DNA of 64,000 nt from Anaerolineae bacterium (GTDB taxonomy: Bacteria; Chloroflexota; Anaerolineae; Anaerolineales; Anaerolineaceae): positions 1 to 64,000 of the forward strand of contig JABLXM010000003.1 of assembly GCA_013177815.1 (NCBI GenBank), in the 5' to 3' direction. The notes beneath the pieces are model-generated. The model saw only the letters and a list, made by a program, of their open reading frames with translations, was not told where the DNA came from and searched no databases. Positions 46,260 through 63,134 of the stretch are shown here, in pieces. How positions within the stretch are numbered: the first letter of the stretch is position 1; every line of letters starts with the position of its first letter. The position numbers and the translations under genes are program-made.

Positions 46260-47509
46260 GCCAATACCTGTTGCTGCGCCATCGCGAGTTGCCCGACCTG
46301 GATAAATTGAGCGGTTACCGCGCACAAGGCGGTTTCGAGACCTTCAAAAAGGCGGTCAACGATATGTCGCCCGCCGAGGTGCTGACGACGGTGAAAGAAT
46401 CGGGGCTGCGCGGTCGCGGTGGGGCAGGTTTTCCCACCGGGCTCAAGTGGGGCTTCATCCCCAACAACCTGTGGCCCCACTATGTGGTCGCCAATGCGGA
46501 TGAATCGGAGCCCGGCACCTTCAAGGACCGCGAGATTTTAGAGAATAATTCCTTCCAGTTCCTGGAGGGGTTGATGCTGGCATCATTCGCCATCCAGGCG
46601 AACGTCGCTTATATCTACCTGCGCGGCGAGTACTGGCAACTGGCAAAACAACTGGACCGGCAGATCGCCGAGTTGGAAGAGGCGGGCTTGTTAGGGAAGG
46701 ACCTGTTCGGCAGCGATTATTCCCTTAACCTCTATACGCACTTGGGCGCGGGCGCTTACATTTGCGGCGAGGAGACCGCTTTGCTGGAATCGATCGAGGG
46801 CAAACTGGGGCAGCCGCGCCTGCGACCGCCCTTCCCGGCGGTGGCGGGGTTATACGGCAAGCCGACCGTCATCAACAACGTGGAGACGCTGGCGAACGTG
46901 CCGCTCATCATCGCCAACGGCGCCGCCTGGTACCGCAGCTTCGGCACCGAAAAGTCGCCGGGCACCAAGGTATTCTCGCTTTCCGGTAATGTGGTCAACC
47001 CCGGCAACTACGAGCTGCCGCTCGGCACGACCTTCCGCGAGTTGATCTACACCCACGGCGGCGGCATCCCCCATGGGCGCAAGATCAAAGCCATCATGGC
47101 AGCCGGCGCCTCCTCCACCATCATCCCGGCGAGCGAGGAAGCGCTGGATACGCCGATGGATTACGAGGAGCCTCAGGCGCGCTTCAACGCGCCGCTGGGC
47201 TCTGCGTCGGTGATCGTGATGGACGAGACGGTCAACATGGCGTGGCTGGTGAGCAAGACCGTCAATTTCTTCAAGCATGAATCCTGCGGCAAGTGCACTC
47301 CCTGCCGTGAAGGCACCTTCTGGATGAACCGTATCAGCCACCGTTTGGTCTCCGGCAACGGCAGCAGCGCGGATATCGACCTGCTCGATCACGTGGCGCA
47401 CCAGATTCAGGGCAAGTGTCTGTGCGCGCTGGGTGAATTTTCCACCATGGCGGTCATCAGCGGCGTGGAGCACTTCCGCCCCGACTTCGAAACCTTGGTT
47501 GGGAATTAA
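46256..47509 (+). CDS. nuoF: NADH-quinone oxidoreductase subunit F
   Basis: ESGLRGRGGAGFPTGLKW; NADESEPGTFKDREI; ESCGKCTPCREGTFWM. Stop TAA overlaps the left inverted repeat of the following cassette. Confidence 0.96.
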   Translation: MSQYLLLRHRELPDLDKLSGYRAQGGFETFKKAVNDMSPAEVLTTVKESGLRGRGGAGFPTGLKWGFIPNNLWPHYVVANADESEPGTFKDREILENNSFQFLEGLMLASFAIQANVAYIYLRGEYWQLAKQLDRQIAELEEAGLLGKDLFGSDYSLNLYTHLGAGAYICGEETALLESIEGKLGQPRLRPPFPAVAGLYGKPTVINNVETLANVPLIIANGAAWYRSFGTEKSPGTKVFSLSGNVVNPGNYELPLGTTFRELIYTHGGGIPHGRKIKAIMAAGASSTIIPASEEALDTPMDYEEPQARFNAPLGSASVIVMDETVNMAWLVSKTVNFFKHESCGKCTPCREGTFWMNRISHRLVSGNGSSADIDLLDHVAHQIQGKCLCALGEFSTMAVISGVEHFRPDFETLVGN

Positions 47510-47534
47510 CCACAGAGACACGGAGACACAGAGA
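47508..47534 (+). repeat. Left inverted repeat of GxxExxY cassette
   Basis: AACCACAGAGACACGGAGACACAGAGA read directly. Confidence 0.9.
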
Positions 47535-47619
47535 TTTTTCTCTAAACTAGAGGCGTATAGAGATCAAGAATTGGCAAATATCAGGTTATGTAATTATCAG
47601 GATTATTGAGTTGTCGAAG

Positions 47620-48033
47620 ATGCTCATAGATAGACCCAAAACAATGACCGCGGCTGACCTGGCGCTATTGAATCCCATCACCCACGATGTGATCGGCGCC
47701 GCCATCGAGGTGCACCGTCAGCTTGGACCTGGTCTGCTCGAGTCGATCTATGAAACATGCCTGGCGGAAGAGTTAAAGCTCAGGGATATTCCTTTTGTCC
47801 GTCAAGTACGCCTGCCGGTCGTTTACAAAGGCATCGAACTGGATTCTGAATATCGTGTGGATATGGTTGTCGATCACAGTGTGGCGATCGAGATCAAGGC
47901 AATCGAATCGCTTCAACCAGTTCATGAGGCTCAAATGCTCACTTATTTAAAGTTGGGTAAATGGAAGCTGGGACTGTTGATGAACTTCAATGTGCCAGTC
48001 ATGAAGGATGGTATCAAGCGATTGGTTTCATAA
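47620..48033 (+). CDS. GxxExxY family protein (PD-(D/E)XK nuclease-like)
   Basis: AAIEVHRQLGPGLLESIYETCLAEELKLRDIPFVRQVRLPVVYKGIELDSEYRVDMVVDHSVAIEIKAIESLQPVHEAQMLTYLKLGKWKLGLLMNFNVPVMKDGIKRLV. Literal GLLESIY motif, RVDMVVDHSVAIEIK core. TTG at 47611 is an alternative start. Confidence 0.92.
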   Translation: MLIDRPKTMTAADLALLNPITHDVIGAAIEVHRQLGPGLLESIYETCLAEELKLRDIPFVRQVRLPVVYKGIELDSEYRVDMVVDHSVAIEIKAIESLQPVHEAQMLTYLKLGKWKLGLLMNFNVPVMKDGIKRLVS

Positions 48034-48041
48034 AATTTGTT

Positions 48042-48068
48042 TCTCTGTGCCTCTGTGTCTCTGTGGTT
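48042..48068 (-). repeat. Right inverted repeat of GxxExxY cassette
   Basis: TCTCTGTGCCTCTGTGTCTCTGTGGTT. Confidence 0.9.
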
Positions 48069-61201: not shown

Positions 61202-61726
61202 ATGGAACGCAAACCGATCGATTTGACGTCGTTCACCGCCCACCCGCACGCATTATGGGATTGGACCTGGTTCCTGCTGGCAAGCGGCGACCTGGCTGCC
61301 GGCAAGTACAACGCCATGACTGTCTCGTGGGGCGCGCTGGGGTTCATCTGGAATAAACCGCTGGCGATGGTGGTGGTGCGCCCAACGCGCTACACCTTCG
61401 GCTTCATGAATGACTTTGCCTCGTTCACGCTCTCGGCATTCGACCAATCCCACCGCAAAGCGCTGGAATACCTGGGCAGCCGTTCAGGGCGGAACGAAGA
61501 CAAGATCAAGGCTTCCGGGCTAACTCTCCAGTCCGCCACCCAGGTGGCGGCGCCAGGCTTCGCCGAAGCCGAACTGGTGCTGGAATGCCGCAAGGTCTAT
61601 TGGCAGGATATAGATCCCAGCCACTTCCTCGATACCCGCATCGACCAGCTCTATAACAAAGACTATCACCGCATTTTCTTCGGCGAGGTGGTCGCCATCA
61701 CCGGCACCGACAAGTACACTGGGTAA
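61202..61726 (+). CDS. Flavin reductase (FMN-binding split-barrel) family protein
   Basis: AAGKYNAMTVSWGALGFIWNKPLAMVVVRPTRYTFGFMNDFASFTLSAFDQSHRKALEYLGSRSGR. Confidence 0.85.
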   Translation: MERKPIDLTSFTAHPHALWDWTWFLLASGDLAAGKYNAMTVSWGALGFIWNKPLAMVVVRPTRYTFGFMNDFASFTLSAFDQSHRKALEYLGSRSGRNEDKIKASGLTLQSATQVAAPGFAEAELVLECRKVYWQDIDPSHFLDTRIDQLYNKDYHRIFFGEVVAITGTDKYTG

Positions 61727-61732
61727 CAAAAA

Positions 61733-62095
61733 AACCTCAGAGGCACAGAGGATGATATTCACCGCAGAGGACGGAGAGAACGCGGAGATATTTATCAGGA
61801 GCGCCGATAGAGATAGACCAGCGCGCCGGCGATACAGTCCGATGAAGCCTTCTTCAGCCAGGGCAGTCTAACATTCGATGCTCACACCAATGCGGTTTTT
61901 TTGGGAACATAGCAATCCAAGCTCTATGACGGTCTCCGGCGACCTCGGCACGAACGGTCTGCCGTATCTGCATGAGAATATACCAAGCACTGGGGAAGAA
62001 AAGGCAACCAATTTACTTTTTACTTTTTCTCCGTGTCTCCGTGCCTCTGTGGTTAGTAAATAACAATCTCTGCCATCTCTCCGCTCTCTGCGGTG
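61733..62095. repeat. Composite inverted-repeat island (two repeat types per side), related to the GxxExxY cassette ends
   Basis: Left AACCTCAGAGGCACAGAG (61733-61750) and CACCGCAGAGGACGGAGAGAACGCGGAGAT (61760-61789). Right TTTCTCCGTGTCTCCGTGCCTCTGTGGTT (62026-62054) and ATCTCTGCCATCTCTCCGCTCTCTGCGGTG (62066-62095). Confidence 0.75.
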
Positions 62096-62108
62096 AGTTA
62101 CCCCCTGA

Positions 62109-63134
62109 TCAAGCCACCTGGAAGAGCAGCGGTTCGCCAGCCATCCAACGGCGGATATTTGTGTAATCTACAAATCGCTCGGGCAAGCCGGCAGCTTCCA
62201 GCGAGCCGGAGGCGGTATGCCCGGTGAGCAGCATGTTGCTATCCGGAACACGCGCCAGGTCCAGCAATGGGTTATCCTGTCGGATCGGCTCCCAGACGAA
62301 GGTATCGCTGGCAACGCCCCCCAACCGCCCGGACGCCAGCGCATCCCGCACATCCGCTTCATTGAGTAATGGACTTCCACCGCAATTGACGATGCAAGCG
62401 CCCGCTTTCATCATTGCGATGAAATCCTTGTCGATGAACTCCTCCGTCTCAGGCGAATACGGCAGCAGGATGCACAAGTAATCGCTGGCACGCGCCAGGT
62501 CATCCTGGCTGGCGAAGTGGATCGCAAGGTCGCGTTCGGCAGTCTCAGGGAGTCGGCTGCGCTTGTTGTACAGCACGGTGCATTCGAAACCCTTCAGCCG
62601 GCGCGCCAGTTCGATGCCAATCTCGCCAAAACCCAGGATGCCAACGGTCTGATGGTAAAGCGTGCCGATGCCCTGGCGGTGGGTGAAGTCAACGACGAAG
62701 TGATCCTCGGTGCAGCGTTTGGGCGGCATGCCCCAATCCTGGTCGAGCGTGACGGCGTGCATGGCTTCGCGCAGCCGCTTCGCCAGCGCCAGCAGTTGCA
62801 GCAGCATATGTTCCGCCACCATGATGGTCGTCCCGATGGGCTGGTAGCATACCGGGATGCCGGCAGCGCGTGCCGCCGCCAGGTCGATATCGTAGGTCTG
62901 CGAGCCCAGGCGCTGCACCAATTCGAGTTCGTCCCCAGCGGCAATGATCTGAGCATCGATGGGCTGCGCGCGTTCGGTGATCAGGATGCGCTTGCCCGGC
63001 AGATGCTGGACGATATCCTCTTTGGATGGATCGCGCAGCATGGTGATCTCTAGTTCAGGCGGCGCTCCCTGCAGCGCGGCTTGCTGGTGGCGCGCGCCGC
63101 GGTGGGTGATGAACAACGTAGGATAGGTGGTCAT
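62109..63134 (-). CDS. D-isomer-specific 2-hydroxyacid dehydrogenase family protein
   Basis: GILGFGEIGIELARRLKGFECTVLYNKRSR; ACIVNCGGSPLLNEADVRDALASGRLGGVASDTFVWEP. Confidence 0.88.
   Translation of the reverse strand: MTTYPTLFITHRGARHQQAALQGAPPELEITMLRDPSKEDIVQHLPGKRILITERAQPIDAQIIAAGDELELVQRLGSQTYDIDLAAARAAGIPVCYQPIGTTIMVAEHMLLQLLALAKRLREAMHAVTLDQDWGMPPKRCTEDHFVVDFTHRQGIGTLYHQTVGILGFGEIGIELARRLKGFECTVLYNKRSRLPETAERDLAIHFASQDDLARASDYLCILLPYSPETEEFIDKDFIAMMKAGACIVNCGGSPLLNEADVRDALASGRLGGVASDTFVWEPIRQDNPLLDLARVPDSNMLLTGHTASGSLEAAGLPERFVDYTNIRRWMAGEPLLFQVA

Follow-up and report, generated by a model that had tools for sequence, protein, structure and literature searches.

A gene-less island of interleaved inverted repeats in an Anaerolineae genome and its probable place in a repeat family associated with GxxExxY genes

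Background

Dispersed palindromic elements that have a partner gene are already known, and a proven role for GxxExxY proteins in the spread of the repeats described here would mean a new kind. Among the closest described systems, REP/REPIN sequences and TnpA-REP (RAYT) are reported as short palindromic hairpins, dispersed in high copy number and plausibly non-autonomous, that also occur on both sides of their partner gene (PMC3116915, PMC3733652, PMC8266576). The GxxExxY-type repeats are likewise dispersed, high-copy hairpins that also bracket a partner gene; however, their arms are heptamer arrays lacking a GTAG/CGTC tag, their words vary by locus, and some copies are intragenic. No GTAG or CGTC head beside a 20-40 bp palindrome, the hallmark of REP/RAYT, is present at the arm ends of the island considered below. 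The partners also differ, as RAYT is a Y1 (HUH) transposase, whereas the partner here is a PD-(D/E)XK-type protein. Rickettsia palindromic elements are palindromic repeats found in-frame within protein-coding genes, a location seen here for a related solo hairpin in two genomes (G119 and G299), while the island itself is intergenic. Compared by description, the Rickettsia elements differ in belonging to other taxa, and the present repeats in having heptamer arrays and a candidate nuclease gene. Miniature inverted-repeat elements (MITEs) offer a further parallel, in that inverted-repeat elements lacking a gene accompany a relative that has the same ends and carries one, and terminal inverted repeats are indeed present in the island; yet no target-site duplication is seen (between homologs that are diverged), interiors are not common to the copies, and the gene with the same ends encodes the PD-(D/E)XK-type protein and not a transposase. 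Finally, the intervening sequences of 23S rRNA and their four-helix-bundle genes (S23, TIGR02436) are similar in that a small gene is bracketed by inverted repeats, but the protein, period and words are different, and no such gene is recognized in the island.

The island lies near the end of the window, the whole stretch of 64,000 nucleotides of an Anaerolineae bacterium that was analysed. It very probably belongs to a repeat family associated with GxxExxY genes and, on balance, is read here as a gene-less, compound, non-autonomous copy within a family of mobile inverted repeats that takes its gene-carrying form in the GxxExxY cassette, the nuclease step being the conjectural part of that reading.

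Structure of the island

The island (61733-62096) occupies the gap that separates two convergent genes, from stop codon to stop codon, and contains two repeat arrays, A and B, each as an inverted pair, in the interleaved order A> B> <A <B. Array A is made of CACAGAG-type heptamers with 1-nt spacers (period 8), and array B of CGCAGAG/CGGAGAG-type heptamers with 2-nt spacers (period 9). From left to right, the A-left array (61733-61750, plus strand, AACCTCAGAGGCACAGAG) has the two units CTCAGAG and CACAGAG; the B-left array (61760-61789, plus strand) has CGCAGAG, CGGAGAG and CGCGGAG; the A-right array (62025-62054, minus strand) has the three units CACAGAG, CACGGAG and CACGGAG; and the B-right array (62066-62095, minus strand) has CGCAGAG, CGGAGAG and GGCAGAG. 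Both B arrays share the unusual second unit CGGAGAG, and the arms start with AACC or CACC. The strict heptamer C(A/G)CN(A/G)A(G/T/A) is matched by A-right and by most units of the island, with CTCAGAG, CGGAGAG and GGCAGAG being variants outside it. All four arm positions in a first-pass annotation of this DNA, along with their pairings of 16/18 and 25/30, proved correct on re-check, with the B pair reaching 37 nt at 81 % in a repeat search. A weak, 7-bp outer inverted pair, spotted by eye, consists of GGGTAAC (61721-61727, plus strand), in which the left gene has its stop codon, and GTTACCC (62097-62103, minus strand).

The first-pass annotation had also remarked that the order is not a simple mirror, and the interleaving is real: A is outer at the left and B is outer at the right, such that the A and B stems cannot nest together. 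The B arms, which have approximately 270 nt between them and so exceed most solos of the same genome, form the closing stem in RNA folding (z -3.0). The best inverted-repeat score in the region is 16, as compared to a maximum of 12 among 200 dinucleotide shuffles. When the whole window is searched, the A pattern with 3 mismatches has 6 matches, a number that is weakly unusual (reached by 2/100 shuffles), and the B pattern has 3 matches, which is not due to chance (0/100 shuffles).

The DNA between the arms (61790-62024, no strand assigned) was said to hold no convincing gene and no GxxExxY ORF, and this stands; a six-frame search for GxxExxY with filters off gave less than 0 bits in its best frame. 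This interior of approximately 235 nt has no counterpart elsewhere in the genome; matches are confined to the arms, and the idea that the interior is a common element body was therefore rejected. Nothing in Rfam matched the island at E<=1, a plasmid search gave only arm-length matches (Sphaerospermopsis and Gemmatirosa), and there are no intrinsic terminators, i.e. a G+C-rich stem followed by a T run, within 61650-62200. To the left of the island, a 174-aa ORF ends at 61726; to its right, a 2-hydroxyacid-dehydrogenase-family gene on the minus strand ends at 62109. Thus, the convergent arrangement and the dehydrogenase reported at first pass are borne out; the flavin reductase named for the left gene is that annotation's alone, the ORF having matched nothing in NCBIfam at E<=0.001. 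Full-length homologs of the dehydrogenase exist in relatives, but no locus fetched contains the left neighbour. Because no fetched locus has the same neighbour genes, none provides an empty site for the island. No target-site duplication was seen at the island.

Copies in the same genome

Within the 3.24 Mb draft (261 contigs, 89 % complete), the A pattern occurs at 24 sites with <=1 mismatch and the B-type pattern at 8, with the reversed patterns occurring nowhere in the whole draft. At least one of the 8 B-type matches is chance-like, falling inside a CRISPR-like array on contig C243, where direct repeats of GTTTCAGTCCCCTTRCGGGGATTGGTTTRATTTC span G000:C243:7400-7600 (L008). The sites form about 20 islands, many of which are A> ... 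<A hairpins with loops of ~10-110 nt, the rest being single arrays. A dispersed family, as initially proposed, is thereby supported; confinement to two loci, which had been named beforehand as grounds for abandoning that proposal, is not what the genome holds, and neither are the arms of the island low-complexity terminators, given the lack of any terminator-like site there. The label 'non-autonomous' also fits, since the island has no ORF and most other copies likewise have none.

Arrays A and B-like arrays adjoin at >=5 other sites (C1:35722, C207/C190, C256, C68:24961 and C212), at one of which (C212) the order is that of the right side of the island; hence, the compound structure recurs. 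Compounds of two different repeat words are also found in another genus, and it is possible that two units were nested or exchanged to give the interleaved order, as first suggested. C207/C190 may be one locus split by a contig end. The end of C207 falls inside an A-B compound that is also present on C190, so that other copies probably coincide with breaks in the draft and are missing from it. A second dispersed intergenic repeat of this genome (ATTCGTTTCATTCGTTCC ... GCGTTGGCGCGCCACCCAACATATTTT; L015, L019, L022 and L032) is often directly joined to an A array.

Only one GxxExxY gene was found in the draft. It is carried, in the same window, by a cassette between nuoF and nuoG, in which a left A arm (47507-47533, plus strand), the gene itself (TIGR04256 / PF13366 PDDEXK_3; 47614-48033, plus strand) and a right A arm (48042-48068, minus strand) follow one another. 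The A word is therefore both dispersed, at 24 sites, and present on a resident cassette (47507-48068). A TIGR04256/PF13366 gene is absent between the arms of the island.

Inverted arrays around GxxExxY genes

The kinship of the island with the nuoF-nuoG cassette, another proposal of the first-pass annotation, gains support from the arrays that bracket GxxExxY genes across many phyla. Among GxxExxY loci of the phylum that were taken irrespective of repeats, ungapped inverted repeats scoring >=13 bracket 54/70, as compared to 6/279 controls. Among named GTDB loci, which come from Acidobacteria, Planctomycetes, Proteobacteria, Bacteroidota, Cyanobacteria, Verrucomicrobia, Spirochaetota, Armatimonadetes, methanogenic archaea and others, they bracket 55 of 78 testable loci, versus 19 of 293 controls. 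The arms have a common grammar, C(A/G)C-N-(A/G)A(G/T/A), repeated ~3x, mostly with 1-2 nt spacers and pointing inward on both sides, and the word varies by locus (CACAGAG, CACGGAG, CACAAAG, CACGAAG, CACGAAT, CACAGAT, CGCAGAT, CGCGAAT, CACCGAG and others). When scored for this grammar, inward arrays are present on both sides in 68/88 loci of the phylum and 55/77 loci of the many-phyla set, with nothing in the controls (0/880 and 0/770 for shuffles; 0/67 and 0/69 for distal flanks). The grammar was derived from the phylum set, making the named set the more independent test, albeit one whose inverted repeats had been viewed before scoring. The left and right arms of a locus share their word, the similarity being 0.963, versus 0.817 in the best of 1000 permutations.

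Distribution of words and gene-less hairpins

In a sample of 400 genomes of the phylum, the exact A pattern was found in 33 and its reversed pattern in 5. Copy numbers among carriers range from 1 to 448, with large differences within a genus (108 in G175, 0-1 in its congeners). GxxExxY genes were found in 76/400 genomes, including 25 of the 33 with the A word and 51 of the 367 others (odds ratio 19, p 1e-13, kinship ignored); the 8 A-word genomes with no detected GxxExxY include G175, at 99 % completeness. Counts of CACAGAG and CACAGAT are nearly exclusive (448/0, 208/0, 108/0 and 20/0 versus 0/253, 0/178, 0/169 and 0/132), a result to which relatedness also contributes and for which the two patterns had slightly different permitted spacing. 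The sole genome rich in both words (G343; 15/16) has one cassette of each. The solo word is often, although not always, that of the resident cassette; the cassettes examined in G423 and G247 have other arrays or none, and not the solo word.

The gene-less hairpins are ~65-70 bp long, have three units per arm, and number up to hundreds of copies per genome. High-copy genomes have regular solos made of TTCACCACAGAGnCACAGAGnCACAGAG, a loop near 16-22 nt and the complement, and G423 has the same hairpin design in the CACAGAT word. At one place (L146; G175:C1, about 120100-121300), seven near-identical A arrays stand in tandem at a spacing of ~193 bp. In G431 (L149, L151) and G423 (L315-L323), the DNA immediately flanking several solos is itself roughly complementary between left and right, e.g. 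gagaaatttcac / gtgaaatttctc, as if an insertion had entered, or built, a longer palindrome.

Comparisons of filled and empty sites show that the repeats are gained or lost. A coding gene of G119 holds an in-frame solo (L162 5563-5627), which G299 has at the same position and which is missing from the homologs in G119:C77, G299:C114 (a second copy) and G082; the peptide with the solo is about two dozen residues longer (..LPADSPQRHKDTEGRETDESLRLRASVVRPEHCLLE.. versus ..MPVGADDAAACLLE..). In genus g104, the arrays at one orthologous intergenic site differ between G101, G160, G167 and G136. No target-site duplication was seen at the filled/empty pairs, whose homologs are highly diverged. In-frame enrichment of solos is unsupported, with 17/38 solos in long open frames versus 422/600 random positions, and weight is given only to the single filled/empty case above. 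An apparently unrelated repeat of ~48 bp has dozens of copies across the genus of G119, G299, G347 and G071.

The GxxExxY protein

GxxExxY (TIGR04256 / PDDEXK_3, PF13366) is a small, stand-alone protein of ~120 aa. Its predicted fold and conserved residues place it in the PD-(D/E)XK type, the residues following the RecB/Cas4-like pattern D...ExK...QxxxY. Twenty relatives are invariant at L37, G38, G40, L42, E43, Y46, L54, D83, E93, K95, A106, Q107, Y111, N124 and F125, and D...ExK...QxxxY is characteristic of RecB/Cas4-type nucleases. The structure model is confident (pLDDT 90.6); a Foldseek search with it gave no PDB chain at E<=0.001, and the top matches, at 0.01-0.1, are the PD-(D/E)XK nucleases LHK-Exo, SSO0001 (which we take to be a Cas4 protein), lambda exonuclease and AddAB. 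Thus, the likeness to RecB, Cas4 and lambda exonuclease consists in the predicted fold and the residue pattern, whereas the small size, the stand-alone state, the lack of invariant cysteines and the weakness of the fold similarity set GxxExxY apart. The family is very widespread and functionally blank; in the open-licence PMC literature searched, it is rarely named and figures in one paper as a neighbour gene only, and a description of its association with repeats was not found there.

Origin of the island

The island is probably part of an undescribed kind of minimal mobile element. That the repeats are moved by the GxxExxY nuclease is put forward tentatively, as the mechanism we favour. In such a scheme, the arms would extrude as a hairpin or cruciform, or would fold single-stranded in replication; the GxxExxY protein would recognize and cut the extruded or single-stranded structures; and host repair would join or copy the cut hairpin into new sites, with gene-less copies spreading in trans. 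Pairing between the arms of one copy, with repair of each from the other, might also keep them alike, which would explain the locus-specific words. In the island, words A and B would have been combined around ordinary intergenic DNA, and the interleaved order, which a single insertion does not account for, counts against this reading of the island.

The main rival to nuclease-driven movement is passive host replication and repair with a passenger gene, i.e. arrays and hairpins arise and copy via replication slippage, template switching and gene conversion, and GxxExxY is a frequent passenger or inserts preferentially into such hairpins. This is rather unlikely, though it draws on the solo-rich genomes that have no matching cassette (G175, G423 and G247), the tandem amplification at L146, the fast turnover of arrays at the g104 site and the lack of a visible target-site duplication between highly diverged homologs. 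It fits poorly with the inward-pointing arms that flank the gene left and right in 70-77 % of loci, with a word match far above permutation across phyla, and with the cassette of the same word that a genome rich in a word often has; still, GxxExxY insertion into pre-existing hairpins could likewise yield matched arms. The first-pass annotation had called the island decayed or non-autonomous, and descent from a GxxExxY (or four-helix-bundle) cassette through loss of its gene would agree with B arms set farther apart than most solos of the genome; it is nonetheless improbable, as six frames searched with filters off hold no GxxExxY trace, and the interior is ~235 nt, versus ~510 nt in the GxxExxY cassette, and unique in the genome.

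Selection for functional intergenic hairpins, whether terminators, mRNA stabilizers or protein-binding sites, has a very low probability. The island does fill a convergent intergenic gap, several others lie <=~25 nt from a stop codon, and the B arms close a stem in the folded RNA, but 61650-62200 has no terminator-like site, solos also occur in-frame within a coding gene, and the distribution is patchy (0 to 448 copies), also within a genus. Chance or low-complexity similarity could be suspected from the purine-rich, periodic units and from the weak significance of the 3-mismatch search for A; it has next to no probability and is refuted by three controls, namely the reversed patterns (0 versus 24 for A and 8 for the B type), the dinucleotide shuffles (all 200 below the inverted-repeat score of the island) and the shuffled flanks (0/880 and 0/770).

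The link to word-specific inverted repeats gives a blank protein family a concrete, testable role and, if the nuclease is the mover, transposition-like spread would need no transposase. The anonymous short repeats CACAGAG, CACGAAG, CACAGAT, CGCAGAG, CACGGAT and CGCGAAT unite into one class, and through its in-gene copies the family also supplies new peptide segments. More speculatively, GxxExxY proteins could be the mobility enzymes of undescribed, pan-prokaryotic minimal elements, in which a RecB/Cas4-like nuclease of ~120 aa, with no transposase or integrase, would recognize heptamer-array hairpins of its own word and spread not only its cassette but also hairpins without a gene, in some cases in-frame into genes; the four-helix-bundle genes with period-7 arms would then be their parallel class.

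Arrays at four-helix-bundle genes

The period-7 arms of TIGR02436 genes are a class parallel to the arms of GxxExxY genes. Among the four-helix-bundle loci of the phylum (L073-L102), inverted repeats with a period of ~7 are present in 17/30, as compared to 1/118 controls, with words such as TCAGCNA, GTTGACA, AGTGATG and CTGGAGA. The genome that contains the island has two such genes, one of which is at G000:C253:10996-11319.
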